Positions 10,206 through 28,972 of a DNA stretch of 44,070 nt are shown here, piece after piece; within the stretch, counting starts at the first letter, position 1; every line of letters starts with the position of its first letter. This stretch comes from a virus. Both the position numbers and the translations under genes were made by a program. The notes below the pieces were generated by a model that did no database searches, had not been told where the DNA came from, and was given only the letters and a program-made list of their open reading frames with translations. Location of the stretch: IMG/VR virus record IMGVR_UViG_3300021131_000013, positions 1-44,070 of that record, one strand, 5' to 3'.

Positions 10206-10796
10206 TTAAACCACCCTAACTAAAGTAAACTTATTAGCTACTTTACCTTTTCTTTTAATTGCTTCCGTAATAGTCGATTTAGCAAAACCAAGATATTCAG
10301 AAGCAAACTTTTGATTCAAAAATGATACTCCAAGTTCTTTGCAAAATACAGGCTTCCATTTAGCTCTTGCTGTTTTTTCTACTTCTTCTTTAGGGTGCTT
10401 TCTACCAATCTGCGCTTGTATCCATTTGTTGCGAATAAAAGGATCTTTTAAAAGGTTTTGCATAGTAGCACTTTGTTTTTTAACAGTTTCTTGCGTAGGT
10501 TTGTATCCTCTAAGACCACAACCGCCTTTGGTCATATTATATATGGGGATAAACTCTTCAACTAATAGTTTTTCTGCGTCATTAAGTTCATCTTTACCAA
10601 ATGCAATAAATAACTCTTTAAATTCAAAACTTTTAAAACCATGATGTTGCATAGCTAAAGCAAACTTAGTTTTATATTTACCAATAGAAGCTTTATGATT
10701 AGTTACCCGCCTTGTTAATTTTTTACAAGTCTGACCAATATACTGTTCCCCAGTAATCTTGTTAGTAGAAAGATAAATAACCCCAAATCGTTGCAT
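10206..10796 (-). CDS. GIY-YIG homing endonuclease with NUMOD-type DNA-binding tail
   Basis: 196 residues from the ATG at 10796, one base after the upstream stop; a longer frame to 10889 overlaps the neighbour and is not needed. The nuclease core is GVIY (5-8), YIG (19-21), an RR pair at 29-30 and a downstream 'AEKLLVEEF' helix (Glu75 to Glu81) that supplies the metal ligand. Residues 98-145 contain a Gly-Lys-Pro-rich linker like NUMOD3, and 150-186 ('ASEYLGFAKSTITEAIKRKG') resemble the NUMOD1 helix-turn-helix. It is a free-standing mobile gene that cuts homing-site DNA to spread itself. Its stop is in frame with, and directly adjacent to, the connector coding region it appears to have invaded. 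Confidence 0.88.
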   Translation of the reverse strand: MQRFGVIYLSTNKITGEQYIGQTCKKLTRRVTNHKASIGKYKTKFALAMQHHGFKSFEFKELFIAFGKDELNDAEKLLVEEFIPIYNMTKGGCGLRGYKPTQETVKKQSATMQNLLKDPFIRNKWIQAQIGRKHPKEEVEKTARAKWKPVFCKELGVSFLNQKFASEYLGFAKSTITEAIKRKGKVANKFTLVRVV

Positions 10797-10797
10797 A

Positions 10798-11091
10798 TTA
10801 GGCCATTGGTCCTCTAGCTTTAATGCCACGCTCGGCAGCACCAGTACCACGAATAACAATACCTTCAGTTTTTTCTCTGCCAATACCATATGCTACGCCA
10901 TTAGATAATGGATCTGTAATGCTGGCATCTTTAACAGATTTAGTTCTGCTATATTCACCAGATTTCATTGGAGCTTCAGCAGCAGCAACGCTTGTGCCAT
11001 TTTTAGCATATTTTACAGCTGGACCATTATCACGAGCATGACCTGTAATCATTGGAGAACTATTTTTAGTAGTAGGTTTAGGGTATTTCAT
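10798..11091 (-). CDS. Small basic protein with RG-rich C-terminus
   Basis: 97 residues from the ATG at 11091 (MKYPKPTTKNSSPMITGHAR), two bases after the upstream stop; a longer frame to 11127 runs into the previous gene. The end reads 'GIVIRGTGAAERGIKARGPMA'-like, with alternating Arg-Gly. It is rich in Lys, Ala, Ser and Gly, has no hydrophobic core pattern, and belongs by composition with the basic proteins at 11.1-16.4 kb. Function unknown; a nucleic-acid-contacting or internal head protein is possible. Confidence 0.78.
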   Translation of the reverse strand: MKYPKPTTKNSSPMITGHARDNGPAVKYAKNGTSVAAAEAPMKSGEYSRTKSVKDASITDPLSNGVAYGIGREKTEGIVIRGTGAAERGIKARGPMA

Positions 11092-11092
11092 A

Positions 11093-11320
11093 TTAACGAC
11101 CTCTTTGGTTATTAGCACGAGCCACATTACGGCCTACAGCTCTCATTGATTTGCCAGTTACTCCGCCTTTTTTAAGAGTAATTTTTGTACCTTTACCGCC
11201 TTTGTGCTCTTGAGAATCATGTTCTTTAAAAGCTTTTTTAATCATAGCAACGTCTTGTTTTTTATCCATTGCCATTTCTTTTTTTGATTCTGATTTAGAT
11301 TCTTTTTCCATCTTTGCCAT
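11093..11320 (-). CDS. Small Lys-rich protein with LKKGG motif
   Basis: 75 residues. The first 35 are a Lys/Glu/Met-rich probable helix; the end has 'HKGGKGTKITLKKGGVTGKS' and 'MRAVGRNVARANNQRGR', strongly basic. A good ribosome site (AGGAG, six bases) precedes the ATG at 11320. It shares the KGG motif with the basic protein cluster further upstream in the operon. No known domain. A DNA-binding or head-internal role is a guess from charge. Confidence 0.78.
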   Translation of the reverse strand: MAKMEKESKSESKKEMAMDKKQDVAMIKKAFKEHDSQEHKGGKGTKITLKKGGVTGKSMRAVGRNVARANNQRGR

Positions 11321-11329
11321 TTTTAGCTC

Positions 11330-11758
11330 CTAAGTTACTGATACTGTTACTGAGTTAATGTTCCCAACAGCAACTAAGCTATTAGGTGTTAATTTACGGT
11401 CAAAACCACTTGAACCACCAACTGGATACCAACCCCATTGAATCTGTCTACTACCATCAGTAGGATAACCATTTTGGGCTGTGGTATTTGCATTTCCATT
11501 TACAGTCTGCAAACCAGTTTGTCCAGCACCATAATAACTAGTATCAGGTCTTGGCTCCCTTACCGCTTGGGGGTCATTGACAGGATACATACCCAATTGT
11601 AATTGAGGTTGGTCTGGTTCCCAACACTCTGGACATACTTTAATGCTAACTTGTTTAGTCTTAATTGTTAACTTTTTTAACTGAACAAGTTTGTATCTTT
11701 GACCACAGCGGTCACATTCGGCAATTGCATGTTTACCAGAAGCAAAATTTGACGGCAT
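11330..11758 (-). CDS. Zinc-ribbon virion-region protein
   Basis: 142 residues. Four cysteines as CDRC (15, 18) and CPEC (42, 45) form a typical zinc ribbon, followed by a 'WEPDQPQLQLG' segment and a Gly/Asn/Thr-rich tail ending in 'SVTVSVT'. Found between two connector-like genes, so a structural or assembly role in head completion is plausible. The zinc site is seen in the sequence; the role is inference. Confidence 0.8.
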   Translation of the reverse strand: MPSNFASGKHAIAECDRCGQRYKLVQLKKLTIKTKQVSIKVCPECWEPDQPQLQLGMYPVNDPQAVREPRPDTSYYGAGQTGLQTVNGNANTTAQNGYPTDGSRQIQWGWYPVGGSSGFDRKLTPNSLVAVGNINSVTVSVT

Positions 11759-11761
11759 TAC

Positions 11762-12709
11762 TTACCTCGAATAGAACAAGTTTCGAGGAACCCAGCGAAC
11801 TGGGGCTGTTTCTCGGTCTTCTTGCGCTGCAAGATTAAACTGGTCTTCATAGTCTTGTTTTAAGAACATGACCCGTTGTGGGTCAATTCCTTGCAATTTA
11901 ATGCATAGGAAGTAGGCTAAACCAGCTGCCATGCAGTTAATAAAGCGGAATGGAACATCCTGTATGTTTACACCATTGCCAGCATCCTGGACTCTTCTCA
12001 TGCGCCAGTAGACCAAAGTATATGGTCCACCGCCTGAGTCTGGAGTAGGCCAGATGTTTACACAGGGTAAATACTGAGCAATTGCTGTAGCTCCAATAGC
12101 ATGACTAGTTGCTGTTGTACCGTTTTGACCACGCCAGCAGTTTTGTAATTGAGTACCAACAATGTTGGTATAAGCAATAACTTCGTTATCTAACTGAATA
12201 AAACCAGTAGAACGTAATCCAGTTAGGGTTCCTGCAGGAGATCCAAGAGTAATCGTGGTATCTGTAGAGCTAATTGCGCTACCAGTTACAGTATAAGTAG
12301 TGACATCAGCGTTACCAGACTGGCGATTGTAATAGACTTGTACAGGTCTTCCTGTTGTAAGTTTATTAGGAATGGTAGCGTAAGTGGACTCAGAAATACG
12401 GCTAAGATTAATATCTGTTTGATTCGATGTACTAGCATTACTGGTTCTGGTTTCTAAGTCTAAGATGTCAATTGTATCGTTTGGAACGGCATAAATGCCT
12501 TGGTTAGTCACCAATGGAATAGAACATTCTTCTACTGTCCATAGATTAATACCACGGTTAGCCCACTCAATGCTCATTAAATTGAGTGATCTACGGGCTG
12601 TCCTTAAATCATATCCAGAACGTAATTGTGAACCGCAACGCTCATACGCTTCCTCGACTAGCTCGGAAAGGTCTAAGTTAAATACGGTTGTACCAGAGGT
12701 ATACGCCAT
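11762..12709 (-). CDS. Connector/adaptor protein of head-tail junction
   Basis: 315 residues. The N-terminal half is helical with 'LVEEAYERCGSQLRSGYDL' and 'TARRSLNLMSIEWANRGINL', a pattern found in phage proteins placed between portal and tail. The middle holds a beta module (about 130-210, 'GSAISSTDTTITLGSPAG', then 'GFIQLDNEVIAYTN'). The C-terminal half returns to helices ('PFRFINCMAAGLAYFLCIKL'). Likely a ring protein of the head-tail joint; whether it or the gene at 9270 is the main adaptor cannot be decided here. The start overlaps the upstream small gene as TAATG. Confidence 0.72.
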   Translation of the reverse strand: MAYTSGTTVFNLDLSELVEEAYERCGSQLRSGYDLRTARRSLNLMSIEWANRGINLWTVEECSIPLVTNQGIYAVPNDTIDILDLETRTSNASTSNQTDINLSRISESTYATIPNKLTTGRPVQVYYNRQSGNADVTTYTVTGSAISSTDTTITLGSPAGTLTGLRSTGFIQLDNEVIAYTNIVGTQLQNCWRGQNGTTATSHAIGATAIAQYLPCVNIWPTPDSGGGPYTLVYWRMRRVQDAGNGVNIQDVPFRFINCMAAGLAYFLCIKLQGIDPQRVMFLKQDYEDQFNLAAQEDRETAPVRWVPRNLFYSR

Positions 12710-12834
12710 TATTTTTTCTTTGCTCTAGTAGTAGCTTTTTGTACAGTTGGTTTTTTGCGAACAGTTTTAGGAACAGGAAAATTAGCTACTTTCTTAGTTT
12801 TAAAAAATTTAGAAAACCAAGATAATAGTTTCAT
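12709..12834 (-). CDS. 41-residue very basic protein
   Basis: The frame starts at ATG 12834 (MKLLSWFSKFFKTKKVANFP) and ends TAA overlapping the next ATG. An AAAGG site lies eight bases upstream. About a third of residues are Lys or Arg, and the tail is 'KKPTVQKATTRAKKK'. An amphipathic aromatic start followed by a basic tail suggests DNA or membrane contact. Supported by the unbroken chain of overlaps (ATGA at 12831-12834, TAATG at 12707-12711). Confidence 0.7.
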   Translation of the reverse strand: MKLLSWFSKFFKTKKVANFPVPKTVRKKPTVQKATTRAKKK

Positions 12835-13007
12835 TTTTTCAAACCTTTAAGTGTCTCAGCTAATCTAGCACGTTGCCCTACTTTACCTGGCTTTTTGGCA
12901 GCAGCAGCTAACTTTTTAGCTGGTATCTTTTTGCCTTGAGGTACGCCAAGTTCTTTGTGCAATGCACCAGGCTTTTTAATGGCTTTTTGGATCCATTTTT
13001 CAGCCAT
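12831..13007 (-). CDS. 58-residue conserved basic phage protein
   Basis: MAEKWIQKAIKKPGALHKEL, then 'GKKIPAKKLAAAAKKPGK' and 'GQRARLAETLKGLKK'. I recognise this type of small Lys/Ala-rich protein from other aquatic phages, but know of no function. It is fully helical by composition and strongly positive. ATGA overlap with the 41-residue gene downstream. Confidence 0.78.
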   Translation of the reverse strand: MAEKWIQKAIKKPGALHKELGVPQGKKIPAKKLAAAAKKPGKVGQRARLAETLKGLKK

Positions 13008-13009
13008 GA

Positions 13010-13291
13010 TTATTTGTCCTCTGAAACTTCAGCAGGAGCTTCAGCTACTAAAGCTTCTTCAGCAGGAGCTACTTCAACAGGCTCTTCAACTACTGTTACT
13101 GGCTCTTCAACAACAGGAGCTACAGGAGCTTCTACAGGCGTAGTTGCAACTACATGAGCTTCTAAAGTACTAACAATGTGAGCTAATTCTGGGCTAGATG
13201 CTCCAAAAGCTTGTTCCAATTGTTGAGATCTTGCTCTAACTGCATCAAGAATTTCAACTGCGTATTCTTCTAAAGTGGTAAATAAACTCAT
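13010..13291 (-). CDS. Acidic protein with Val-Glu-Pro repeat tail
   Basis: 93 residues. Residues 1-47 form a probable helix (MSLFTTLEEYAVEILDAVRA onward); the rest is a low-complexity acidic tail of P-V-E, V-V-E-E-P and A-P-A-E units. It is the only strongly acidic product among a row of strongly basic ones, so a counter-ion or chaperone role for the basic neighbours is possible but unproven. Overlaps the upstream gene by 4 bases. Confidence 0.75.
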   Translation of the reverse strand: MSLFTTLEEYAVEILDAVRARSQQLEQAFGASSPELAHIVSTLEAHVVATTPVEAPVAPVVEEPVTVVEEPVEVAPAEEALVAEAPAEVSEDK

Positions 13292-13656
13292 TTTTTCTTC
13301 CTTGTTTTTGCGGATTTAGTAAATGCTTCTTCAGTTGGCGCACCTTTACTATTAGGTTTACGCATTTTCTCACCAGAGCCAGCTGCAATACGAGCTTGCT
13401 TTTTATGAATGTTTTCGTATAAACCACCTTTGGCAAACATATCTGAAGCTGTTAATTTGCCAGGTTGTTTAAGCATTTTTTTGACAATAGGAGCCATACT
13501 CCCAGGAACTTTAGATACTTGGATTGGTCCAGCGTGTCTAATAGTTCCACCTTTGGCGTATAAATCTACGTCATTAGGGTTATCTGTTCTATGAATAACC
13601 CTTTTCTTAGGCATTTTGGAAGGGGCTATATCACCCATTCCACGGCTGGCTCTCAT
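13288..13656 (-). CDS. Basic protein with repeated KGG motifs
   Basis: 122 residues. It begins MRASRGMGDIAPSKMPKKR, carries 'DLYAKGGTIRHAG' and 'DMFAKGGLYENIHKKQ', and ends 'GEKMRKPNSKGAPTEEAF' plus a Lys/Arg tail. The A-K-G-G motif followed by a hydrophobic residue recurs in the neighbouring genes. No known fold. Small-residue and basic composition suggest an extended, perhaps DNA-bound, head component. Start overlaps the upstream stop (TAATG). Confidence 0.78.
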   Translation of the reverse strand: MRASRGMGDIAPSKMPKKRVIHRTDNPNDVDLYAKGGTIRHAGPIQVSKVPGSMAPIVKKMLKQPGKLTASDMFAKGGLYENIHKKQARIAAGSGEKMRKPNSKGAPTEEAFTKSAKTRKKK

Positions 13657-13847
13657 TATTTAACGTACTTTCCACCACACATTTTTTCAACCATATCCAT
13701 ATGGTGTGTATGACCAGCAGCGTGTTTTTTAAACTCATGCTTATGGTGTTTATGAGTGTCAGTCTCATGTTCAGCGATAAACTCATCGTGACGTTCCATA
13801 TCTGGACCCATGCGTGGTTCCATTGATTCTTTAACTAATTTATTCAT
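13656..13847 (-). CDS. Histidine-rich small protein
   Basis: 63 residues with about a dozen His, concentrated in 'HDEFIAEHETDTHKHHKHE' and 'HAAGHTHHMDMVEKMCGG'. The spacing of His, Asp, Glu and one Cys suggests metal binding. A strong AAGGAG site precedes the ATG at 13847. No homologous domain is recognised; it could bind zinc or nickel in the particle or in the host. Confidence 0.75.
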   Translation of the reverse strand: MNKLVKESMEPRMGPDMERHDEFIAEHETDTHKHHKHEFKKHAAGHTHHMDMVEKMCGGKYVK

Positions 13848-13858
13848 TTTAATGCTCC

Positions 13859-14314
13859 TTATGCTCTAGTTTTACCACGAATTGCACAGCCGTCTGCACG
13901 GGCTGAAGCTGAAGAACGAATAACACCACCCTTTTTCTTGCCTTGTGGTGCTGGTTTTATTCCGCCCATATTATCTGGTGCTGGTTTTATTCCGCCCATA
14001 TTATCTGGTGCTGGTTTTAGCCCACCCATATTATCAGAATCTGAGGTTTTAGCATTTGGTGGAGTTTTGCTCCATTCCTTATAAATGGGGTTTCCACCCG
14101 CGCTCATTTTTCTAACTTTACCGCCACGCTTCATTCCTGTAGGTGCAGCAGGTGTAGTTACATCACCCGTAGGATTTACTTGAGGAATATTTTGTTCAGT
14201 TGTACCAAACATTTTGTAGTCTCGTTCTGCTTCTTGACGAATACCACGTTCTTTATTAGCCTTGTAATAGGCCTCACGTTTGGCTTTTTCTTTACCAGTT
14301 TCTTTGTATGGCAT
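13859..14314 (-). CDS. Basic KGG protein with RGKTRA tail and tandem repeat
   Basis: 151 residues. A charged helical start (MPYKETGKEKAKREAYYKAN) is followed by 'MKRGGKVRKMSAGG', three tandem copies of a 10-residue unit (DNMGGIKPAP) and the signature end 'KKGGVIRSSASARADG' plus CAIRGKTRA at the very C-terminus. The end is nearly identical in protein, but not in DNA, to that of the next gene upstream. TAATG overlap with that gene's stop. Confidence 0.8.
   Translation of the reverse strand: MPYKETGKEKAKREAYYKANKERGIRQEAERDYKMFGTTEQNIPQVNPTGDVTTPAAPTGMKRGGKVRKMSAGGNPIYKEWSKTPPNAKTSDSDNMGGLKPAPDNMGGIKPAPDNMGGIKPAPQGKKKGGVIRSSASARADGCAIRGKTRA
13947..14036 (-). repeat. Three tandem 30-bp repeats
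   Basis: Units at 13947-13976, 13977-14006 and 14007-14036. The first two are identical; the third differs at a few bases. Each codes for DNMGG(I/L)KPAP in frame, so copy number can change without breaking the gene. Recent duplication by slippage is the simplest reading. Confidence 0.92.
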
Positions 14315-14679
14315 TATGCCCTCGTCTTTCCACGTTGCGCTATACCATCTGCTCGCGCAGATGCTGATTTAATTTTACCGCCTTTAGCCTTATTTAATGG
14401 TTTAAAACGACTACCCATCATGCCTTTTTCAAGATCTCCGCCATCACCACCTATACCGCCAACTCTGGTATTTCCAGAATAGTTTTTGGTATAAGCATTT
14501 TTAGCTTCATTAATTGCTTTACCTTCATTGACTGACTTTTCAAGAAAATCAGCAAACTGTTTGGCCTTTTCTGGATTTGCAGTAGGATCGTTAGACATAC
14601 CCCGCTGCATTCTTTCTAAGAAAGATTTTCCATCCCCAGTTTTTGAGGTAGGATCAACAGGATTTACTGGATTAGCCAC
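14314..14679 (-). CDS. Basic KGG protein with RGKTRA tail, GTG start
   Basis: 121 residues from GTG at 14679, chosen because AAAGG lies eight bases upstream and the longer frame to 14763 runs through the previous gene. Sequence: VANPVNPVDPTSKTGDGKSF, a central helix ('PEKAKQFADFLEKSVNEG'), a Gly-rich patch ('GGIGGDGG') and the end 'KAKGGKIKSASARADG' plus IAQRGKTRA. Overlaps the previous gene by 8 bases. Same C-terminal signature as three neighbours. Confidence 0.78.
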   Translation of the reverse strand: MANPVNPVDPTSKTGDGKSFLERMQRGMSNDPTANPEKAKQFADFLEKSVNEGKAINEAKNAYTKNYSGNTRVGGIGGDGGDLEKGMMGSRFKPLNKAKGGKIKSASARADGIAQRGKTRA

Positions 14680-15220
14680 GCGTAAAGCCTTTAGTAGCAC
14701 AACCATCAGCGCGCTTGGATGCAGAAGTTCTGCCACCAGATGCCATTTTCTTAATAGCTCCACCTTTTTTAACGCCTAATTCAAAGTCTTTACCGCCAGT
14801 ACGTTGACCTTTAGCATTGAACTTAGAAAGTGGATCAGGAAGACTAATCTTCATTGAAGGCATATCAGCTTTAGATTTAGTAGCTGTTGTATTGCCACCA
14901 GCTTCTTTAAATGATTTAGGTAATGAACCTACACCAATAGATTTTTTGGCTTCTGATACAGCAGAACGCATCTTAACATCAGGATTAATGGTGTCATCAC
15001 CAGTAATTCTTGGAGTAACTTTAGTTTTAACTACAGTACGTTCTACTGCTTTAGGAGCAGATGCTGTAGGAGTCGGATTTGGTTCACGATCCATAGACAT
15101 ATCTTCAGCTGCGGGTTTTGTAAGATCATTACCTTGTGCATCAATCATGCCCATGCGATATTTAACGATTGGATCATCACCTGTATAACCACCATCATCA
15201 TAGCGTTTAGTCTTTTTCAT
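14672..15220 (-). CDS. Basic KGG protein with ATKGFTRG tail
   Basis: 182 residues. The start contains a 'RYDDGGYTGDDP' motif, the middle is Lys/Pro/Thr/Ser-rich and probably disordered, and the end reads 'GVKKGGAIKKMASGG', 'SASKRADG', 'CATKGFTRG'. This is a diverged version of the RGKTRA tail of the neighbouring genes. No enzyme motif. ATGA overlap with the gene upstream. Confidence 0.78.
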   Translation of the reverse strand: MKKTKRYDDGGYTGDDPIVKYRMGMIDAQGNDLTKPAAEDMSMDREPNPTPTASAPKAVERTVVKTKVTPRITGDDTINPDVKMRSAVSEAKKSIGVGSLPKSFKEAGGNTTATKSKADMPSMKISLPDPLSKFNAKGQRTGGKDFELGVKKGGAIKKMASGGRTSASKRADGCATKGFTRG

Positions 15221-15861
15221 ATTGTGCGTCCTTTCATTTTAGGCATCATTGCACGAGTTTTACCTCGTTCTGCAATTCCATCACCGTGTGGCTTATGGCC
15301 TCCAGAAGTTTTTACAGTACCCATCTTAGAAGCTTTAATAGTGCCGCCTTCAGCATATTTTTTAGTCCAAGATTTCATGTTTTTTTCAGATTCAATTTTT
15401 TCTTTAGAACCAGAATCACCTAAGTTAGAACCTTTAGTATGACCGCGTTTTTGAACGGCTGATTCACCAAACTTAGTTAGTTTGTTTGAACCTTTTTCTA
15501 CATCATATTTCATAGATTTAGGATCAGCTGAACCACCTTTAGCCATTTTTTTCATTGCACATCCACCTTTTTTCATTCCTGGCATACCACCCATTGGGGC
15601 TGCTGCTGGAGGAGCCATCATTGGAGCTGCTTGAACTGGGGCTGGTGTGCGTAATGCACGAGCAGCCATCATTGCCATTGCTGGATTAACTGATTTTTTC
15701 TTAATTGCCATCGCATCACCACCTTTTCTAAATGTTTTGCCTTTATCGGCTTTTGCAAAATCTTTGCCCACGGATTGTGGGATACCTACCTTCTTAGCAA
15801 AAGCCTTATTGTGGGCTACTGCTTCCATTAAATTATGCTGCGATTTTGATTTACTTGGCAT
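15217..15861 (-). CDS. Basic KGG protein, MPSKSKSQ head and RGKTRA tail
   Basis: 214 residues. The head MPSKSKSQHNLMEAVAHNKA with 'GIPQSVGKDFAKADKGK' is a module I recall as a stand-alone small protein in other phages, so this may be a fusion. It is followed by a Met/Ala/Pro-rich linker ('MMAPPAAAPMGGMPGMKKGG'), 'MKKMAKGGSADP', 'YAEGGTIKAS' and near the end 'GDGIAERGKTRAMM'. Here the tail motif is 13 residues from the C-terminus. Function unknown. Confidence 0.8.
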   Translation of the reverse strand: MPSKSKSQHNLMEAVAHNKAFAKKVGIPQSVGKDFAKADKGKTFRKGGDAMAIKKKSVNPAMAMMAARALRTPAPVQAAPMMAPPAAAPMGGMPGMKKGGCAMKKMAKGGSADPKSMKYDVEKGSNKLTKFGESAVQKRGHTKGSNLGDSGSKEKIESEKNMKSWTKKYAEGGTIKASKMGTVKTSGGHKPHGDGIAERGKTRAMMPKMKGRTI

Positions 15862-16109
15862 TATTTAAACCATCTATCCAAAATCCAAACACAAATACCA
15901 CCAGATAAACCTGCAAGAACTGTAAATACACTATGCAAAGTTTTTTTACTAGCACCTTGTTCACTAATCATTCTTTGAATATCTACAAGTGATTTCTTTA
16001 CTTCTTCCATATTACGAACAAGTTTATCCATATCTGCCTGTAAATGGTCAATTTCACTTGCATGAGTTGCTAACTCTCTTGCCGTTTCAATTGGATTAAT
16101 ATTGTTCAT
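15861..16109 (-). CDS. Coiled-coil protein with C-terminal membrane anchor
   Basis: 82 residues from the ATG at 16109, which overlaps the upstream stop as TAATG; an ATG 12 bases earlier is possible. A heptad-like helix (about 10-52, with 'HLQADMDKLVRNMEEVKKSL') precedes one membrane segment (58-77, 'LHSVFTVLAGLSGGICVWIL') and a short basic end. The layout resembles XhlA/holin-accessory proteins. It could be a second holin, a holin antagonist or an injection-related membrane protein. Confidence 0.75.
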   Translation of the reverse strand: MNNINPIETARELATHASEIDHLQADMDKLVRNMEEVKKSLVDIQRMISEQGASKKTLHSVFTVLAGLSGGICVWILDRWFK

Positions 16110-16354
16110 TAACATTTCCATTTTTTTAAACTTTTGTTTATTCTGCTGTCAGGATCTTTGGCTGTTTTTTCAGATGTTAACTTTGATTTCATACCTTCCA
16201 TTCGAGCACAGAATGATTTTTTCCTAGAGCCACCCTCTGGTTGAGGGGGCTTTAGATTCATTCCTTGCTTTTTAGCAGAAGCTCTCCCTTTGGCATTTAA
16301 ACCGCCAGTAGGACTTTTGCCTTCTTTGCGTTGCCAAGCAGGAGTTTTAGCCAT
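16109..16354 (-). CDS. Conserved small basic phage protein (MAKTPAWQRKEG type)
   Basis: 81 residues: MAKTPAWQRKEGKSPTGGLN, 'KPPQPEGGSRKKSFCARMEG', 'TAKDPDSRINKSLKKWKC'. I recognise this as a widespread uncharacterised phage family (I believe named DUF6321, unchecked). It is strongly basic with two cysteines. Because it lies among head and internal-protein candidates, DNA contact is plausible. Confidence 0.82.
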   Translation of the reverse strand: MAKTPAWQRKEGKSPTGGLNAKGRASAKKQGMNLKPPQPEGGSRKKSFCARMEGMKSKLTSEKTAKDPDSRINKSLKKWKC

Positions 16355-16355
16355 G

Positions 16356-18908
16356 TTATGCCATCGCTTCCTGACAAACTACGTTAACCTGAGTTACTGT
16401 AGATGTAGAAGTAGTAACAGCTACTGTTAGAATATCAGCTACGTTACCTTTAATGTTTGTTAATACAGGGAAGAAGCTTGATAGATCTATTTGTTGCAAT
16501 GCATTATTAGGTGTAGAGAATGAATAAACAACCTCACCACCAGTAACGCCAGTACTAGATAAATCTACTTCGGCAAATGAGTTATATGAACCCAATGTAT
16601 TAAGAGCTTTAAAGTTTGCGGCTTGTAATGATGTCTGGTTAGTTGGAGTACTTGCAATTAATTCAACCAAAGCTGTAGCACTTGTATTAATTAGCAAAGT
16701 TTGTGGCAACAACTGACCACGATCAATTAAACCAATTTGATACGCACCACTAGCTGTTGGAGAATTCATTAATGGCAAGCCAGTAATAATGTCTTGGAAT
16801 GTTAAGACGTTTACTGTATTGCTTGTAATCCTTGCTGTGTAAGGAGAACTTACAGTTACGCTACCAGCAGTAAATGTTCCAGGAGTTACGTTAGCAAAAT
16901 AAATTATCGCTCCAGTAGTTGTTGTACTTACTGATACGTTATAAGTACCGTTATAAGCAGTACTTCCAGCATTAGCAATAGTAATGACGTTACCAGTTAG
17001 CAAGTTATGAGCTGCTGCAAATCCTAAAACTACTGGGAATTGAGTAATACCGCCAATAACTGTTGCAGATCCTGGAACAGCAGTACTTAATGCTGGCAAA
17101 GCAGCTTGGTAGTAAATTGATTTACCAACAAATTGATTAACACCCCAATAAGTTGCTGTAGGGTTTGTAGTTGCTGTTACACCAGTTAATAACTGGATTG
17201 GCAGAATCATTGTTGTTGTTGTTGGCACAGATTGAATCAAATAAGTGCCAGCTGCATAAGTCGTTGTTGCAGTCAAAGTAGCAGCAAAAGTAGTTTGTGC
17301 AGAACTTACTGTATATGTACCAACACCGCCTGGAGCATAAGATGTAACTGTGCCAGATACTTGAGCTGTAAATGCTTGGCTAATGGTAATAGATGCACCA
17401 TTTACACCAGTAATGAATGATCCAGCAGGAATGCCTGTACCAGCGATTAACTGACCTACTGCAAATGATGTACCAGCTGCCAAAGTAACTACGCTTGAAC
17501 CAGCTGCACCGCCACTTGAATAAGCCTGTGAACCAACGGCAGATCCAGTAGAAGTTAATTGATTAACAATGGTAGGAGTACCAACAATACCTGTTCCAGA
17601 TAATGTTTGATTAGCTTGGAAAGCACCTGAAGTTACTGTAGTAACTGTTAAAGTAGTTCCAGAAAAACTAAAACCACCAGATGCTGATGTTCCAACTTCA
17701 GTAAATGAACTTAATGTAATGTATTGAGAAGCATTATTAGCATTAGCAGGGTTAGTTACTGCATAACCATGAGCACCGCCAAAAGTAAATAATGCTTGAC
17801 CGTTATTAGATTGTCCAACTACTGAAGAAATAGTTGTACCTCCAACCGTACCTAAGTTACCAATAGTTAAGGTGGTATTAGTTCCTGCGGTAATCGCTGA
17901 GTTTGTGTTATCAAATTGATCGGTACCAACGGTTCTCATACGGAAAGACATCATTGGATAACGAATCGCAGATGCTGGAACTGTACGAGATTGTTGAGCA
18001 GCATAGTTACCATATGAATAGGTAAATCCACGTTGTTTATCAATACCACCTTCAATTAATACTGAAACACCATAGTGGGTCATTACTGAAAGGCCAGTAG
18101 AACCATTATCACGTTGCTCATAGCGAGCTGGCAAGTTACCAGTACGGCTCCAAGGTTTAACTTGAGATACGCCATTTACTGTACCGTTACCAGTACCAAC
18201 TTGATGAACTACCCAAGGTTCGCCATTAATAACCACACCAAAGCGCAGAGCACCAGCTCCATACCAAGCGTATTCCATCCAAATCATTTGAACTTTAGTC
18301 CAATCAAGTGATTTGATAATGGCTTGATTACCGTTCCAAGCGCCCATTGGGAATACTTGATCTGTTGGCAAACCACCAGAATCTGAACGGATTACACAAT
18401 ACATTGCATAAGGATTGTCTGGTGTAGGCGTTCCTTGTTGCATAAAGAAAATACCGTTGGAATCATCAAAGATACCAACACGCTGAAACTGACCATTTAA
18501 CGATGTACCAAAGTTGACGTTAGAAGCCATGTACATTGTTTTGCCAGGCTGATAACGATGATATGGACGTGATTGACGAACAGTAATATCACCAGGTACG
18601 TTACCGCCACCAATAGTCATAGTGACACCACCTAGACCTGGATTTTGAACAATAGAAGCCTGTCCTGATACGTTAGCAATAAAGTTTTCCCAACGCAAAG
18701 GCTGAACACCGTACTCAAAGTCGGCATCATAAATATTTTGTGATTGTGAAACTTTAAGCTTACCTACAACGTCACGAAGTCGTTGAGGTGCTATAAATTG
18801 AGCTGCACCATCAATACCAGTTAAAGGTGTGCTTGGAGTTTGAACTCCCATTGCACCCGTTTGGTTATTGGGCGAGAAAAAGTTTAATAGATTCCATCCG
18901 CCTGACAT
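16356..18908 (-). CDS. Large beta-rich virion protein, 850 residues
   Basis: Begins MSGGWNLLNFFSPNNQTG. Residues about 60-330 are rich in Trp and Tyr ('GIFDDSNGIFFMQQ', 'LDWTKVQMIWMEYAWYGAGA', 'GVVINGEPWVVHQV') and look like a jelly-roll or lectin-like fold. Residues about 360-740 consist of Thr/Gly/Ala-rich beta modules, including 'SGTTLTVTTVTSGAF' and 'GTYTVSSAQT', of the same kind as in the gene at 1-2373. The C-terminus returns to a compact domain. No catalytic motif. Position after the capsid genes suggests a head fibre, decoration or spike. A clear AAGGAG precedes the start; a terminator lies just upstream. Confidence 0.78.
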   Translation of the reverse strand: MSGGWNLLNFFSPNNQTGAMGVQTPSTPLTGIDGAAQFIAPQRLRDVVGKLKVSQSQNIYDADFEYGVQPLRWENFIANVSGQASIVQNPGLGGVTMTIGGGNVPGDITVRQSRPYHRYQPGKTMYMASNVNFGTSLNGQFQRVGIFDDSNGIFFMQQGTPTPDNPYAMYCVIRSDSGGLPTDQVFPMGAWNGNQAIIKSLDWTKVQMIWMEYAWYGAGALRFGVVINGEPWVVHQVGTGNGTVNGVSQVKPWSRTGNLPARYEQRDNGSTGLSVMTHYGVSVLIEGGIDKQRGFTYSYGNYAAQQSRTVPASAIRYPMMSFRMRTVGTDQFDNTNSAITAGTNTTLTIGNLGTVGGTTISSVVGQSNNGQALFTFGGAHGYAVTNPANANNASQYITLSSFTEVGTSASGGFSFSGTTLTVTTVTSGAFQANQTLSGTGIVGTPTIVNQLTSTGSAVGSQAYSSGGAAGSSVVTLAAGTSFAVGQLIAGTGIPAGSFITGVNGASITISQAFTAQVSGTVTSYAPGGVGTYTVSSAQTTFAATLTATTTYAAGTYLIQSVPTTTTMILPIQLLTGVTATTNPTATYWGVNQFVGKSIYYQAALPALSTAVPGSATVIGGITQFPVVLGFAAAHNLLTGNVITIANAGSTAYNGTYNVSVSTTTTGAIIYFANVTPGTFTAGSVTVSSPYTARITSNTVNVLTFQDIITGLPLMNSPTASGAYQIGLIDRGQLLPQTLLINTSATALVELIASTPTNQTSLQAANFKALNTLGSYNSFAEVDLSSTGVTGGEVVYSFSTPNNALQQIDLSSFFPVLTNIKGNVADILTVAVTTSTSTVTQVNVVCQEAMA

Positions 18909-19841: not shown

Positions 19842-21443
19842 ATGAAGAAAAAAATGAGTATATCCGTACCCCCACACATTATTAATAAATTTGACAAAGC
19901 TTTGCAATGCTTCAGTTCTGGTAAGGCTCAAGAGGCAGTTAACATTTGCCAAGAAATTATTAAAATAGTTCCAAAACATGCAGATGCATATCATCTTATT
20001 GGAGTAATTTTAAGTAATTCTGGTCAGTTTGTTAATGCTATGGAGTTTTATAACAAGTCTATAGAATTTTTTCCAGCTAATCACATGGCATTTTGTAATA
20101 GAGGAAATGCCTATCACCAACTTAAACAGCCAGAATTAGCATTAGAAGATTTAACTCAATCTATAAAACTAAAACCTGATTATGCAGAAGCTTATTACAA
20201 CAGGGGAATAGTAGTAGGTGCGCTTCATAAGACTGAAGAAGAAATAGAAATGTACAATTTAGCTCTTAAATACAAGCCTAATTTTCCAGAGGCCTATAAC
20301 AATAAAGGTATTGCGCTGCAAAAACTTCATAGAATGGAAGAAACATTAGCCAATTATGATGCTGGAATAGCCCAAAATCCGCAGTTTATTGAGGCTTTTT
20401 ACAATAATCGTGGACTTGTTTTACAAAATTTAGGTCGTATAGATGAAGCTTTAGTTGATTACAACAAAGCAATTGAGATCAAACCTAACCTTGAAGATTG
20501 TCGTTTTAATCGTTCTATGTGTCTTTTACTTAAAGGTCAATACGATACTGCTTGGAAAGAACACGAATGGAGATGGAATAGAGCTTCATATCCTAGAAAA
20601 GAATTTGCAGGAAAGCCTTGGTTAGGAGAAGAAGATCTTACTAATCAAGTATTGTTTATTTATGGAGAACAAGGTCTTGGTGATATGTTGCAATTTTGCC
20701 GTTATGTAAAATTGGCAAAAGAACGTGGTGCAATTGTATTGTTGGGAGTAGAAAATCCATTAGCTCGTATTTGCACATCATTAGAAGGTGTAGATGGAAT
20801 TATTACTCCAAATGTACAGTTACCACATATTGATTACCATATTCCTATTATTAGCCTTCCTTTAGCATTTGGAACTGATAGTTTAGATAAAATCCCAAAT
20901 AAACCCTATTTATCTGCAAGCCCAGAATCTATAGCTTATTTTGCTAAAAGATTGGGAAAAAAAACTAAAAAAAGAGTGGGTATTGTTTGGTCTGGTGGAT
21001 ATAGGCCAGATCAACCAGAAGTTTGGGCTGTTAATGAAAGGCGCAATATAGCTCTTGAAAAATTAGTTTGTTTACAGCATCCTGATATTCAATTTATTAG
21101 TCTCCAGTTAGGAGAGCCAGCAGTAACAGAGTTAGCTAATTCTAAAGATTGGGATTCTTTAATTAATTTAACCCATGAATTAAAAGACTTTGAAGATACC
21201 GCTGGTTTAATTGCAAACCTTGATTTAGTTATTGCAGTAGATACATCTACCGCCCATATAGCTGGCGCAATAGGAAAACCAGTATGGTTAATGAACCGTT
21301 TTGATACTTGTTGGCGTTGGTTAATGGATCGTTCAGATAGTCCTTGGTATCCAAGCTTTACTATTTACAGACAACCTAAATTGGGTGACTGGGATAGCGT
21401 AATAGAATCCATCAAAAATGATTTACATAAGGACTTAAAATGA
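19842..21443 (+). CDS. TPR-repeat glycosyltransferase, opposite strand to late genes
   Basis: 533 residues. About seven tetratricopeptide repeats fill residues 11-245 (helix pairs such as 'AYYNRGIVVGALHKTEEEIE'), with one residue inserted in a repeat near 'EAFYNNRG'. The C-terminal half is a GT9/GT41-like fold: 'YGEQGLGDMLQFCRYVKLA', 'RVGIVWSGG', 'DLVIAVDTSTAHIAGAIGKP', 'DTCWRWLMDRSDSPWYP'. Such fusions are common in bacterial surface polysaccharide loci. It would transfer a sugar to a glycan or protein, for example changing the host receptor or a virion protein. There is no good ribosome site before ATG 19842; ATG 19854 is an alternative. Overlaps the next gene by 4 bases. Confidence 0.87.
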   Translation: MKKKMSISVPPHIINKFDKALQCFSSGKAQEAVNICQEIIKIVPKHADAYHLIGVILSNSGQFVNAMEFYNKSIEFFPANHMAFCNRGNAYHQLKQPELALEDLTQSIKLKPDYAEAYYNRGIVVGALHKTEEEIEMYNLALKYKPNFPEAYNNKGIALQKLHRMEETLANYDAGIAQNPQFIEAFYNNRGLVLQNLGRIDEALVDYNKAIEIKPNLEDCRFNRSMCLLLKGQYDTAWKEHEWRWNRASYPRKEFAGKPWLGEEDLTNQVLFIYGEQGLGDMLQFCRYVKLAKERGAIVLLGVENPLARICTSLEGVDGIITPNVQLPHIDYHIPIISLPLAFGTDSLDKIPNKPYLSASPESIAYFAKRLGKKTKKRVGIVWSGGYRPDQPEVWAVNERRNIALEKLVCLQHPDIQFISLQLGEPAVTELANSKDWDSLINLTHELKDFEDTAGLIANLDLVIAVDTSTAHIAGAIGKPVWLMNRFDTCWRWLMDRSDSPWYPSFTIYRQPKLGDWDSVIESIKNDLHKDLK

Positions 21444-22030
21444 AATTTTACGAAGATGTACGGCATATGCTTGGAGAAAGAGCCGCTGGATTTGATGCGG
21501 CTTTTAATTATCTTAAAAATATTAAAGATCCTTTGATCATAGAAACTGGTTGTGCTAGAGAAGAAAACAATTACCTTGGTGATGGTCAAAGTAGTTTGTT
21601 ATTTGATCAATATATATCAGAATATGGTGGGCATTTTATGACTGTAGATATTTCTGATATTAGCGTTAACTATTGCAAAAGCAAAATGATTAGTAAAAAT
21701 AGTTTAGTTATTAAAAATGACAGCATACTATTTTTAAAAAAACTAAATGAAAAGCTTTTAGCAGATGGTAAAAAAATAGATTTTCTTTACTTAGATAGTT
21801 TTGATGCCCCTAGAGATCAACCAGATGTGGTTTTTAGAAGTGCTTTGCATCATATGTATGAGTTGGCTACTATCTTGCCATCTCTCAATCCTGGAGCTTT
21901 AATTGGCGTTGATGATAACTGGGTGCAAGACTATAGACGAGCTGGAAAAGGATGCATTATTGCTGATTATATGAACAGCATAGGAATTACACCTATCTTT
22001 GACCAATACCAAATTTTTTGGAAACTGTAA
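21440..22030 (+). CDS. Class I SAM-dependent methyltransferase
   Basis: 196 residues. The fold is marked by 'LIIETGCAREENN' (glycine loop, 32-44), 'MTVDIS' (Asp70, binds the ribose), 'DFLYLDSFD' (Asp119) and 'ALIGVDDNW' (153-161). It resembles the Methyltransf_24 type associated with sugar modification. Translationally coupled (ATGA) to the glycosyltransferase, so both probably act on the same glycan. Substrate unknown. Confidence 0.83.
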   Translation: MKFYEDVRHMLGERAAGFDAAFNYLKNIKDPLIIETGCAREENNYLGDGQSSLLFDQYISEYGGHFMTVDISDISVNYCKSKMISKNSLVIKNDSILFLKKLNEKLLADGKKIDFLYLDSFDAPRDQPDVVFRSALHHMYELATILPSLNPGALIGVDDNWVQDYRRAGKGCIIADYMNSIGITPIFDQYQIFWKL

Positions 22031-22098: not shown

Positions 22099-23001
22099 TT
22101 AATAAGAACCGTAAAGTCCTAGTGGATCAGACCAGCCGAAGCTGTAACGCTCACGAGACTTGTAACGTACGTTACCAGTATCAAAGTCACCGTCCATGCT
22201 GTTTTGCAGCGGAGTACGAACAAAGTGCTTCAAACCGTTAGGTACATCAGTTGTCAAAAACCAAGCATTGGTAGCGGTCAAGAAGTGGTTAATTGTGTAA
22301 CCTTCTGGAACTGCACCGTTGTTTTTGATTGCGTTGATATCGTTGTTGTTTGTACCAACACGCAATTCAGTTTCGAGCAAACGAGTTGCAACGAACTGTA
22401 ATGGTGGTGGAACAACCAATTTACGAGGTTTAGCAGCGATTAACAAGCCGCGCTCATCGGTCCAACCAGCGATTTGAATAACAGCATTTTCCAATGCAGT
22501 TTCGTTCAAGTCAGCAGCTGTAGATGGAGCATTGCTGTTAGTACCACCGTTAACCAATGGGTGTGAAGCGTTGAGTAGTGATACGCCATCGCCACCTGTG
22601 TAGGCAGCGTTGAAAGCGTTATTCAATACAGCAGCAGCTTTAACTTGCTTGGTATAGGCCATAGCACGAGCCAGGCCTTTGGTGTAGCGAGCTGATAAAG
22701 AATCGTAGAGGTTGTCTTCGATTGCTTCTTCAGTCAAGCTAAAGCCAAGGGCGATAGTTTCGTGGTTGTAGCGAGCTGTCCATGCTTCTTGAGCATTGTC
22801 ATAAGCGATGGCAGAGCCTTCGTTTTTGACAGGAGCTGCAGAGAAACCTGACAGTTTTGTTTCTTCTTCAAAAGAACGCTCAGAAGTCTCAGTTTCGTAG
22901 ATCTCTTTGTGTTCTTCACCGTAGCGAGCATACTCAAGTCCGAACAATGCGTTCAGTCCAGGGAGCAACTCTTTCAGTAGTTGTGAACGTGAAATAGCCA
23001 T
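22099..23001 (-). CDS. Major capsid protein, Mu gpT-like
   Basis: 300 residues, MAISRSQLLKELLPGLNALF. The central 'YNHETIALGFSLTEEAIEDN' and 'TKGLARAMAYTKQVKAAAVL' helix, 'GVSLLNASHPLVNGG' loop and C-terminal 'GLKHFVRTPLQ...RYSFGWSDPLG' pattern match the Mu-like head subunit group with the HK97 fold. Codons here are more G/C-ending than in the neighbouring virion genes, as expected for a highly expressed gene. AAGGAG site before the start and a strong terminator behind. No cleavage site or maturation protease is evident. Confidence 0.88.
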   Translation of the reverse strand: MAISRSQLLKELLPGLNALFGLEYARYGEEHKEIYETETSERSFEEETKLSGFSAAPVKNEGSAIAYDNAQEAWTARYNHETIALGFSLTEEAIEDNLYDSLSARYTKGLARAMAYTKQVKAAAVLNNAFNAAYTGGDGVSLLNASHPLVNGGTNSNAPSTAADLNETALENAVIQIAGWTDERGLLIAAKPRKLVVPPPLQFVATRLLETELRVGTNNNDINAIKNNGAVPEGYTINHFLTATNAWFLTTDVPNGLKHFVRTPLQNSMDGDFDTGNVRYKSRERYSFGWSDPLGLYGSY

Positions 23002-25750: not shown

Positions 25751-25937
25751 CTGAGTTCTCCAAGTTTTTACGCAAGTCTAATATATTAAGACGGGCGGTG
25801 AGCAGACCTGTAATCTCTCCACACATCCTTTGGTATTCAGCGTAGTCTTTGGCTACGCCTGTACCAAGGGCCTCTTCCAAGTCCCTAACTTTCCCTTCTG
25901 CCTGTTTGAGGAGAAGGTCTAGTATTTTGTCGTTCAT
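25743..25937 (-). CDS. Small helical protein between portal and co-chaperonin
   Basis: 64 residues (MNDKILDLLLKQAEGKVRDL, 'GVAKDYAEYQRMCGEITGLL'). All-helical, with an 'AKDYAEYxxxCGxxxGL' pattern seen in phages next to portal genes. Overlaps portal (4 bases) and co-chaperonin (8 bases). Possibly an assembly factor; unproven. Confidence 0.75.
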   Translation of the reverse strand: MNDKILDLLLKQAEGKVRDLEEALGTGVAKDYAEYQRMCGEITGLLTARLNILDLRKNLENSDE

Positions 25938-28405
25938 TTAGTTCCCTTTTTTTGTTGGGTTGAGTTATGTTTGAGTAAATCAACTCCCATACGGATTTTT
26001 TCCGTATTCATTTGCGCTTTAGCTTGACCAGTTTGCGCGCCAATTCTTAATCCTTCTAAGCGTTGTTTAGCCTCAAGATCTGCTTTATCTTTGGCAGTCT
26101 TAGCACCAACTTGCATACCAGCAATTTCTTTTTGGGCCATGATTCTGGCTTTTTCGATCTCGATTTGGTCTGCTTTAGCCGAGGCATCCATGACCATTTT
26201 TTGCTGTTTAAGCTGAACTTCTTGCTGTTTGAGCTTGAGTTCTTGCATCTGCATTTGGACAATAGGATCATTCTGAGCTTGTTGGGCCTGTTGAGCAGCC
26301 ATCGCGGTCTGGTTCTGGTTAAGCAACTGCTGGGCAACAGGAACAGCCATACGAGCAATCTGCATTTCCATTTCTGGAGACATATTCTCTTCGCCATCTT
26401 CTGAATATGGAATCTCGATACCCATTTGTTGTTGCATCTGCCGTCTATATTCCATGCCAACGTGCTCTGTAATGTGGGCTTGCATAGCTTGCATCATCAT
26501 TGGAGCCTGTGGATTTTGACCAATAACCTGTTTGATCTTAGGATCTTGCATCGCAGCCATATGAACTTTGATATGGGCTTCGTGATCTTGGTACATAAAC
26601 GCTTTTAAAGGTTTTGACTTTAGGACGTTCATGTTCTCTGTTACTGGATCGCAAGGTTTTTCATCTTCTGGCATAGGAACTAACTTAGATGCATTCTTAA
26701 TCCCAATAACTGCCAGCATTTGACGATGTAAAAATGGTAGGTTATACAGTTGAGGCGCAGTTTGAGAAAGTTGTAAAACAGCCTGATACTGAACGACCTT
26801 TTGAGACATTGTTGCTGCATTAGGGTCTGAGACAGGAACAATCGTCACCATCCCATAGTCGCTCTTTTTAGCCTTACGACTGCCTTCTGTAGGTTCGTAT
26901 GGATAATTTTCTGGACAATTATTTTGAATAATTTCTTTTAGAAGCCTAAATTCTTGCTTCATTGAATAATGGATACGCGCTTGAATAGCCGACATAACTT
27001 TTAAAGTACGTTCCAAAATTGCCAAAGTTGTGCCGACTGGAGAGTTTGCAGACATATCTGCTACTTTCAAATCTCCTGCAGAAGCAAATCTTCTGCCATC
27101 TTCAATGATTTGATTTAACAAAGTAATCAAGGTTTGGCTTGGTTCTTTGTATGGTAATGGCATGATGTTATCTTTCATCGCGCCACTTGGTACATCTACA
27201 TCTCGGAATTCGCCTGGGGCTATTGGTGTGTCATCGCCTTTGACTCGCAACCCACGGGTCTTAAAGCCGCCTGGCAGATTTGCAAGTGACCCTGCATCAA
27301 CCAGCTGCCGAAGTATGGAAGTGCCAGATTTAGCAAAAGCACCGAGAAGATGGACAATACCAAAACAGTAAAAACCGAAACCAGGAATATAGCCATAGTG
27401 GACGAAATGCTGTCTCTTTTCATGTTTTTCATCATCTTCCTTCCAGTTACGTCTAATTGAAAGAATAGTCGCGGTATTCTTTTCAATCGTGACAACGTAA
27501 GGTAGAGCGATACCAGTAGGTTCGCCATCTTCATCTGTATGCTCGAAACCTTCTAAGTCAAGGTCAACGTGCATTTCCAAAATCTTAAAGCGGTCATCTG
27601 TGGACGCTTTAAAACCTAACTTCTCTGCAATCTTTTTTTCAATTTCATCTAAAGTGTTGATTGGATCACCAAGATCTACGTCCCTGTAAAAGCCTGAGAC
27701 TTGTAGTTTTCTCATTTCATTCTCTGTTTTACGCATTACATGGGTAATGCGTTCTGCAGTTTCAAGGTTAGACGCGCCATAAGGAACGACTAGATCATCG
27801 GCTGGAACGTACATTGACACTTGACGGCCTAATTGAGGATCTTCATAAACCTTTTTAAAACCGTTACCTGATAAGCCCATACCCCAGAGCATTCTTTCAT
27901 GTTCTGGGCGGAACTCTACCATTACATCTGTTATTTGATAGTTCATGTCTTCTTCGACACGGGTAGCTGCTTCTTTTTTTACAGGGGTTTCTTTGCCAAT
28001 AATCTGAGTTCTTACAGGACCAGATGCTGGGAAAGTCTCCATAATCGTTTCGGCTTGGAACTTTACGACTGCTTCAGCTAGGATAGGATGATAAACACCG
28101 CAAGCTCCTTCCCAAGGTTCAGACCGTTCTTCAATCTTTAATCCCAAAAGTTCAAGGCCATCTACATAGGTCTGAATCCAATCTTTGCGGGAATCTACGT
28201 CATCTTCAAAACTGTCAATTAGCTCTGATCCCAAAGTTGCTAAGACGCGTTCAGAAATAATTTCGGCAAGGTTCTCACCAAAGTCTTCATCAGCTAAAAC
28301 TTCAACATCCATTTCGCCTTCGGGCGCGAGTTCAATCTCAATGTCTGGAGCCTCAATTGCAGCTAGTCCTTGTGGGAGTTCGTATAGAGCTTTATCTACT
28401 GACAT
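25934..28405 (-). CDS. Portal protein, P22-like
   Basis: 823 residues. An acidic N-terminus (1-50) precedes the portal core: 'RKDWIQTYVDGLELLGLKIE', 'EPWEGACGVYHPILAEAVVK', 'MNYQITDVMVEFRPEHERM', 'YVPADDLVVPYGASNLETAE'. The C-terminal 150 residues are a Gln/Met/Lys-rich coiled coil ('MQMQELKLKQQEVQLKQQKM'), comparable to the barrel of P22 gp1, which is also long (725 residues). It forms the dodecameric DNA entry ring and partners the terminase encoded upstream. Confidence 0.9.
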   Translation of the reverse strand: MSVDKALYELPQGLAAIEAPDIEIELAPEGEMDVEVLADEDFGENLAEIISERVLATLGSELIDSFEDDVDSRKDWIQTYVDGLELLGLKIEERSEPWEGACGVYHPILAEAVVKFQAETIMETFPASGPVRTQIIGKETPVKKEAATRVEEDMNYQITDVMVEFRPEHERMLWGMGLSGNGFKKVYEDPQLGRQVSMYVPADDLVVPYGASNLETAERITHVMRKTENEMRKLQVSGFYRDVDLGDPINTLDEIEKKIAEKLGFKASTDDRFKILEMHVDLDLEGFEHTDEDGEPTGIALPYVVTIEKNTATILSIRRNWKEDDEKHEKRQHFVHYGYIPGFGFYCFGIVHLLGAFAKSGTSILRQLVDAGSLANLPGGFKTRGLRVKGDDTPIAPGEFRDVDVPSGAMKDNIMPLPYKEPSQTLITLLNQIIEDGRRFASAGDLKVADMSANSPVGTTLAILERTLKVMSAIQARIHYSMKQEFRLLKEIIQNNCPENYPYEPTEGSRKAKKSDYGMVTIVPVSDPNAATMSQKVVQYQAVLQLSQTAPQLYNLPFLHRQMLAVIGIKNASKLVPMPEDEKPCDPVTENMNVLKSKPLKAFMYQDHEAHIKVHMAAMQDPKIKQVIGQNPQAPMMMQAMQAHITEHVGMEYRRQMQQQMGIEIPYSEDGEENMSPEMEMQIARMAVPVAQQLLNQNQTAMAAQQAQQAQNDPIVQMQMQELKLKQQEVQLKQQKMVMDASAKADQIEIEKARIMAQKEIAGMQVGAKTAKDKADLEAKQRLEGLRIGAQTGQAKAQMNTEKIRMGVDLLKHNSTQQKKGTK

Positions 28406-28414
28406 AAATTTTCC

Positions 28415-28972
28415 TTAAATTAACTTCATTCCACCGTTTAACGGTTTATCTATTGTTCCGCCAGACGCTTTGGTTGTCATATACGTCTTTAGTTCTTCTA
28501 ACTTTTTGGTTTGTTCTGGCCTGTATTTTAGTTCTTTATTAATACTGTTAGGCCATTGTTTTAAAGCGTATCCGCGCATGGCTGCATCAGTAGCATTCCG
28601 AATGGCGTGTTCTACAGGACGGCCTTCTTCTAAGGTTGCGTTGTAATCTAATGCTCGTTTTTCCAAAACCTTTAACTGTTTAGGACTCCAAGTTCCCATT
28701 AAATCTTCACGGATCTGGTTTGACATAGGATCAACGTGCAGAAGTTCACCAGCTAAATCATGGTGGCTAAATTCCCCTGGCCTTCTAATCTCAATAACAT
28801 GGCGATCAATTGGAAAATGTTCTGGGCGCGGAGAATCTGGTGGGCCAATTTCACCTACAGGCCAAGTTTCGGCATAGCCTTTTCCTTCACCTATTGTTAC
28901 CATAGGATCATGCTGTTTAATAAAAGGATACTCTTGTATCGCTTTATTAAGAATATTTTCAGAATAATCCAT
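28415..28972 (-). CDS. Uncharacterised protein between terminase and portal
   Basis: 185 residues. Middle part 'DRHVIEIRRPGEFSHHDLAG' followed by 'ELLHVDPMSNQIREDLM', with several His, Asp and Glu that could bind metal, and helices after it. The C-terminus 'ASGGTIDKPLNGGMKLI' is related to the KGG motifs of the 11-16 kb cluster. Function unknown; the head-gene position would fit an internal or maturation protein. Overlaps the terminase stop-start by one base. Confidence 0.75.
   Translation of the reverse strand: MDYSENILNKAIQEYPFIKQHDPMVTIGEGKGYAETWPVGEIGPPDSPRPEHFPIDRHVIEIRRPGEFSHHDLAGELLHVDPMSNQIREDLMGTWSPKQLKVLEKRALDYNATLEEGRPVEHAIRNATDAAMRGYALKQWPNSINKELKYRPEQTKKLEELKTYMTTKASGGTIDKPLNGGMKLI

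Follow-up and report, generated by a model that had tools for sequence, protein, structure and literature searches.

The virus record IMGVR_UViG_3300021131_000013 of IMG/VR, which we analysed in its whole length of 44,070 bases (hereafter the window), carries within its head operon four adjacent genes whose otherwise unrelated small products share a short basic tail at or close to the C terminus. Across a large group of aquatic phages, dozens of small proteins with nothing else in common carry the same tail, which belongs to one clade of capsid genes and one operon position. In nearly all loci the tagged genes are linked to head genes, and the tag itself is modular, under selection at the protein level and co-varying within genomes. 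We give about an even chance to the tail being a modular docking tag for the assembling head, by which diverse small proteins would be loaded. No entry in Pfam, PHROG or PDB describes this tail and its motif strings returned nothing relevant in the open-access papers searched, in agreement with a preliminary description of the window whose author knew of no account of such a system.

That description had listed four adjacent genes (named here by their lower coordinate, Table 1) as ending in the tail. A tail profile trained on 137 sequences from other contigs, with the window left out, singles out the same four: exactly four of the 463 open reading frames (ORFs) of the window exceed 5 bits (43.6, 42.5, 27.8 and 18.4), with the next-best ORF at 4.4 bits and a maximum of 2.9 on reversed ORFs. 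Only for gene 15217 does the claim need amendment, as a diverged copy there precedes the last 10 residues, and this longer-ended variant recurs in its orthologues. For gene 14314 the GTG codon at 14679 is the probable start, because its homologues begin with MTKPVEPV. Genes 10798, 11093 and 13288 had also been named as relatives, and gene 28415 had been said to end in a similar motif. This stands for gene 10798 alone, which together with its orthologues ends in a second, related signature (RGxGAAxxGxxARGPMA before the stop) that a profile of the VRG form of the tail, described below, recognises. Genes 11093, 13288 and 28415 have no match to the tail profile. The end of gene 28415, GG-x-I followed by a terminal KLI, is common to its own orthologues (loci L180 and L109) and distinct from the tag. 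As side observations, the signature MRGxGAATKGxMARGPMA before the stop, which resembles the VRG tail, occurs on one gene per genome with a conserved body; a loose pattern for the signature of the 10798 type matched 67 non-redundant ORFs; and a GIY-YIG endonuclease ORF at 10206-10889, likely a homing gene, overlaps the end of gene 10798.

With one tagged protein as query, loci similar in the tail alone were retrieved. An alignment of tails searched against viral contigs gave at least 600 matching stretches, 191 of which were confirmed, and against 257 Gb of bacterial and archaeal genomes 31 matching stretches, of which four were confirmed (L109-L112). Since L109-L111 share the gene order of the phages, they look like phage contigs in bins of metagenome-assembled genomes, and the pattern in L112 (Arthrobacter), found with no genes of the clade, was taken as chance. 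E-values of short profiles are rough and reversed ORFs therefore served as control: among the 34,652 ORFs of the first loci, the profile search that the preliminary description had proposed gave 441 hits at a threshold of 15 bits and none in the reversed ORFs, so the tail is not found merely by chance. The bare 27-residue tail had no match among GenBank phages by tblastn, and the sole match of the profile to PDB sequences, photosystem II, was at chance level.

The copy number and the linkage to head genes, likewise proposed as a check, were determined on a second set of loci that was fetched by the major capsid protein (MCP) alone and whose selection is thus independent of the tail; most loci are fragments. 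Among the loci that span MCP to adaptor, 52 of 66 carry one to five tails, and 104 of the 117 tails lie between these two genes, the other 13 following the adaptor. The strand is that of the MCP for 132 of 133 tails in this set, and over all loci 687 tails are on the same strand and 1 on the opposite one. The number of copies per locus ranges from 0 to 6, and some other copies adjoin the TerL and portal genes. Among tagged phages the MCP is about 77-95% identical; TerL is mostly at 55-65% and the adaptor is also less conserved than the MCP.

The tail is joined to very different proteins. In 168 of 212 motif-bearing ORFs the motif ends 1 residue (RGKTRA) or 4 residues (RGKTRGKMV) from the stop, and the remainder mostly have the longer-ended variant GKTKGxxVxMxxGGxC. 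The bodies of 203 tagged proteins fall into 78 unrelated single-linkage clusters. In the description the proteins were called basic and their bodies low in complexity; the bodies are indeed disordered or of low complexity, but only mildly basic, with a mean charge of +0.058 per residue and 12% at or below zero, while the tail segment has a net charge of about +7. Scans of 70 tagged proteins gave no match in Pfam, one in PHROG (through the MPSKSK module described below) and one weak match in PADLOC. In AlphaFold models, the product of gene 13859 (from its single sequence) is predicted as an N-terminal helix with the rest disordered (mean predicted local distance difference test, pLDDT, of 57), and that of gene 15217 as a confident helical start of 40 residues with a tail of pLDDT <55. 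Such predicted disorder of the tail is expected of a linear motif; a fold search with such a model found nothing significant. The gain or loss of the tail is visible in DUF6321 proteins, 17 of which bear it among 155 non-redundant orthologues, with 138 lacking it: the untagged protein typically ends at W[KN]C and, in the examples read, the tail joins directly after that residue. Some orthologues of gene 11093 have the tag motif at their very start, as KSAADGxTKKGKTKGKNLGD (L017 10099-10290, L065 4477-4674, L110 3607-3792), so the C terminus is preferred and not obligatory; the sequences suggest that the motif also works, or survives, at this N terminus.

The tails were said to be alike in protein and different at synonymous positions, and hence to be kept by selection and not by recent copying, and both statements hold. 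The DNA of the tails of genes 14314 and 13859 differs at 12 of 13.5 synonymous sites. Over the 16-codon core of the tail, the proportion of synonymous differences (pS) is 0.67 within one genome and 0.73 between genomes, and that of nonsynonymous differences (pN) is 0.26-0.27. Since the tails were found by a protein motif, pN is biased low; the synonymous saturation is free of that bias and excludes recent copying. Tails of one genome nevertheless resemble each other in protein: their identity is 0.785 within genomes vs 0.726 between genomes, and 2000 permutations of the within-genome value gave a mean of 0.727 (sd 0.009, maximum 0.756). For pairs that differ at at least 50% of the codons for the same residue, the values are 0.792 within vs 0.730 between genomes. 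The rare ADGCC[IV] is present in all three tails of L065, and L090 and L093 have RGDGCATKGHT in three tails each. This likeness suggests, as judged from the sequences, a shared and co-evolving partner that changes from phage to phage, and an old clade-specific duplication may contribute to it.

A broader form of the tail occurs in more distant capsid relatives. Their loci lack the tail described so far (the ADG form), and several have proteins ending in KGGKVRGAGCAKKGVRPCKMM or similar before the stop, a form with the pattern GG.VRG.G.A.[RK]G......-stop (the VRG form). Collected with one rigid pattern, GG.VRG.G.A.[RK]G, the set comprises 85 ORFs, spread over 78 newly listed contigs; 58 of these ORFs end exactly seven residues past the pattern. 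Genes of the same clade are carried by 71 of the 78 contigs, and the ORFs lie between MCP or DUF6321 and adaptor, between TerL and portal, or after gene 11330, on the strand of their neighbours in 80 of 80 cases. Hybrid tails, KKGGIVRGSGCAKRGKTRGKMV in L310 and KEGGSVRGDGCEIRGKTRGKIV in L049, each directly before the stop, tie the VRG to the ADG form, and the system extends over a wider clade. A comparison of the two profiles gave a probability of 96.7 (E 4.5e-10) with hand-picked input sequences that included hybrids; a profile of VRG tails alone recognised, at 8 bits, 103 of 366 ADG ORFs vs 2 in reversed ORFs. Among loci with MCP and adaptor, which were fetched in several ways, the ADG form is present in 62 of 63 at an MCP identity of at least 85%, and most of those at 75-80% have the VRG form or no tail. 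The cultured and named isolate Pag-Yong1 has a tagged protein between MCP and portal-adaptor (UMO75986.1), which ends in YASGGMIGRDGCAKRGRTKGRFI.

The head operon of the window lies on its minus strand in the order TerL, portal homologue, GroES-like gene, scaffold-like gene, MCP, DUF6321, tagged block and adaptor (Table 1). Within it, two genes run on the plus strand (19842-22030), one for a tetratricopeptide repeat protein with a weak match to glycosyltransferase family 9 and a second gene. Several modules next to or within the tagged genes have virion or head contexts in phages that are unrelated. The first 45 residues of gene 15217, the phrog_16759 module, also open CBB_322 of the jumbo phage CBB, a protein that mass spectrometry of CBB virions detected by 30 unique peptides, at a coverage of 43.6% (PMC5259590). 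DUF6321 forms the end of the cyanophage protein GC0119, which is annotated as structural, and the module of gene 13288 lies in HTVC120P between the scaffold and capsid genes. Jumbo phages, T4-like cyanophages and T7-like pelagiphages also have the small MPSKSK, DUF6321 and phrog_16028 modules, in some cases as part of a large structural protein.

Table 1. Positions of the head operon genes, tagged genes and tail signatures in the window.
Feature	Position	Strand	Remarks
TerL	28972-30471	minus	
Gene between TerL and portal homologue	28415-28972	minus	
Large protein, homologous to portals	25934-28405	minus	
GroES-like gene	25340	minus	
Scaffold-like gene	24378	minus	
Genes between scaffold-like gene and MCP	23930 and 23017	minus	
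MCP	22099..23001	minus	PF25209 above cut-off; phrog_371
Gene between MCP and structural protein	18959	minus	
Structural protein	16356-18908	minus	
DUF6321 protein	16109..16354	minus	5' border of tagged region; no tail in the window
Small coiled-coil/transmembrane protein	15861..16121	minus	position conserved
Tagged protein	15217..15861	minus	N-terminal 45-residue helical module phrog_16759
Diverged near-terminal tag copy of gene 15217	15244..15285	minus	GGHKPHGDGIAERGKTRA + 10 residues; 18.4 bits
Tagged protein	14672..15220	minus	N-terminal KKTKRYDDGG motif; ends in ASGGRTSASKRADGCATKGFTRG
C-terminal tag of gene 14672	14675..14770	minus	KKGGAIKKMASGGRTSASKRADGCATKGFTRG; 27.8 bits
Tagged protein	14314..14679	minus	ORF 14314-14763; probable GTG start
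C-terminal tag of gene 14314	14317..14388	minus	AKGGKIKSASARADGIAQRGKTRA; 42.5 bits
Tagged protein	13859..14314	minus	predicted N-terminal helix, otherwise disordered; DNMGGIKPAP repeats; ends in KKKGGVIRSSASARADGCAIRGKTRA
C-terminal tag of gene 13859	13862..13936	minus	KKGGVIRSSASARADGCAIRGKTRA; 43.6 bits, i-Evalue 4e-13
His-rich small protein	13656..13847	minus	just after tagged genes; position conserved
phrog_16028 protein	13288..13656	minus	MRASRGMG..KSAKTRKKK; untagged; position conserved
SU10-type head-tail adaptor	11762..12709	minus	3' border of tagged region; SU10_adaptor (PF24175) above curated cut-off
Second C-terminal signature of gene 10798	10801..10857	minus	VIRGTGAAERGIKARGPMA; VRG profile 8.9 bits

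The contexts of the neighbouring modules, the position in the operon, the modularity and the co-variation together make a docking tag the best reading of the tail. Unrelated small accessory proteins would be made from the head operon, each bearing the tail; one phage-encoded partner in the assembling head (MCP, portal/adaptor or scaffold) would bind the tails, and the bound proteins would be taken into or onto the procapsid, comparable to the capsid-targeting sequence (CTS) of T4. That a common partner binds all tails is what we infer, and the bodies would then be cargo that varies, perhaps entering the host together with the DNA. It is possible, and we propose it tentatively, that the ADG and VRG forms constitute a clade-wide C-terminal address code, in which one peptide family would sort many unrelated families into the particle, mark, through its sequence alone, a hidden set of injected proteins and co-evolve with its receptor in each phage. 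Several points weigh against a docking tag. Since DUF6321 is mostly untagged, not every protein of the region can require the tag; a few motif copies are N-terminal or internal; and no tail reaches the threshold in the close relative L128, whose MCP is 91% identical. Mantel tests of tail distance were inconsistent, MCP and adaptor each leading in some subsets, and a search of the literature for proteomic or structural data on tagged proteins or phages found none. The tag is also strongly basic, which is compatible with DNA binding.

This charge is the starting point of the main rival explanation, rather unlikely in our judgement, in which the tail is a nucleic-acid-binding peptide whose bearers cover or condense the packaged DNA, or else bind RNA, the common partner being the DNA. 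Neighbouring genes encode very basic small proteins, and a 58-residue basic protein at 12831-13007 has a sub-threshold match (E 0.0012) to VP2 of fuselloviruses, a DNA-binding capsid protein. The invariant residues of the tail, however, are G, D, A and T, while R and K swap freely, some bodies are neutral or acidic, and generic DNA would not impose the genome-by-genome co-variation seen in L065 or L090 and L093, which favours a protein partner. The tail might instead, though we judge this unlikely, dock proteins to the head exterior, the adaptor or neck, or an assembly intermediate, so that they would be assembly factors or minor decoration and not cargo. The tagged genes directly precede the adaptor gene, further copies lie beside the TerL and portal genes, and in the four-gene subset the adaptor gave the best correlation with tail distance (r 0.22); in other subsets the correlation with the MCP was at least equal, and a fixed role in assembly fits poorly with the high turnover of copy number and bodies. 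We consider it very unlikely that a host factor reads the tail, as a degradation or stability signal or for a host machine unrelated to particles: a fixed C-terminal position and adaptation to one host, which would also give within-genome co-variation, fit such a role, but almost every copy is linked to head genes and shares their strand, some are N-terminal or internal, and the tag is confined to one clade of capsid genes. Hardly credible is an effect at the DNA level, be it recent copying, a recombination site or a ribosome-binding or coupling signal for the next gene. Several tail codons do overlap the start of the next gene and the tails stand in tandem; the near-saturated synonymous sites within and between genomes and the free choice of codons at each tail position contradict all of these.

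If the tail is indeed a packaging tag, the 27-residue profile would detect virion-carried proteins of unassigned function in viruses that for the most part are known from metagenomes. The tag would also account for the arrival of very different small proteins in a single compartment, provide a C-terminal counterpart to the internal-protein system of T4 and be of use for packing foreign proteins into phage heads. Should the proteins not be packaged, the co-variation of the tails within genomes would still point to a common partner.

By gene order, from TerL through portal, GroES, scaffold and MCP to the adaptor, and by homology, the window fits a phage clade with a Phage_capsid_4 MCP, an SU10-type adaptor and a GroES-like gene. 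Its closest GenBank phages are 023Pt_psg01, DSL-LC04, HTVC023P and HTVC027P by TerL (54-57% identity) and Planktothrix phage Pag-Yong1 by MCP (69.5%). Phages of the HTVC027P/023Pt type likewise encode small basic, GG-rich, low-complexity KGG proteins in the same gene block, and their complete genomes gave no match to the tail; the HTVC027P transcriptome paper holds no information on these genes. The module phrog_16759/22033/25121 (MPSKSKxQHNLM) is N-terminal and distinct from the C-terminal tail; it holds the start of gene 15217, and most tagged proteins are without it. From DNA-condensing internal or nucleoid proteins the tagged proteins differ in that their bodies are not strongly basic, and the charge of the tail is compatible with DNA binding. 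Encapsulin cargo-loading peptides, which form short tails of otherwise different cargo proteins, attach to the inside of the shell, and a short C-terminal peptide on unrelated proteins is also found here. The shell protein family is another one: the MCP of the window matches Phage_capsid_4 and Mu-like gpT above curated cut-offs, no encapsulin model is among the matches, nor did the MCP match any PDB sequence. Cargo loading in general is treated in PMC7355545.

As in the T-even phages, one short sequence stands on small and diverse, indeed hypervariable, proteins, the gene content varies and the genes are tied to the head. In T4 the CTS stands at the N terminus and the prohead protease processes it; the tail here is C-terminal, and packaging is proven in T4 only. 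A hydrophobic-x-E (LxE cleavage) site is not enriched before the tag (0.022 vs 0.026), and no protease was recognised among the head genes tested. Given the different position and the failure to find either a cleavage motif or a protease, we do not claim membership in the T-even system. T-even internal proteins are highly diverse with only the CTS conserved (PMC3012670), and at least one of them counters a host defence (PMC3012670, PMC9391042); for the processing of the CTS, PMC9391042 cites Mullaney and Black 1996. By analogy, the internal proteins of T-even phages offer the nearest working model for the tagged proteins.

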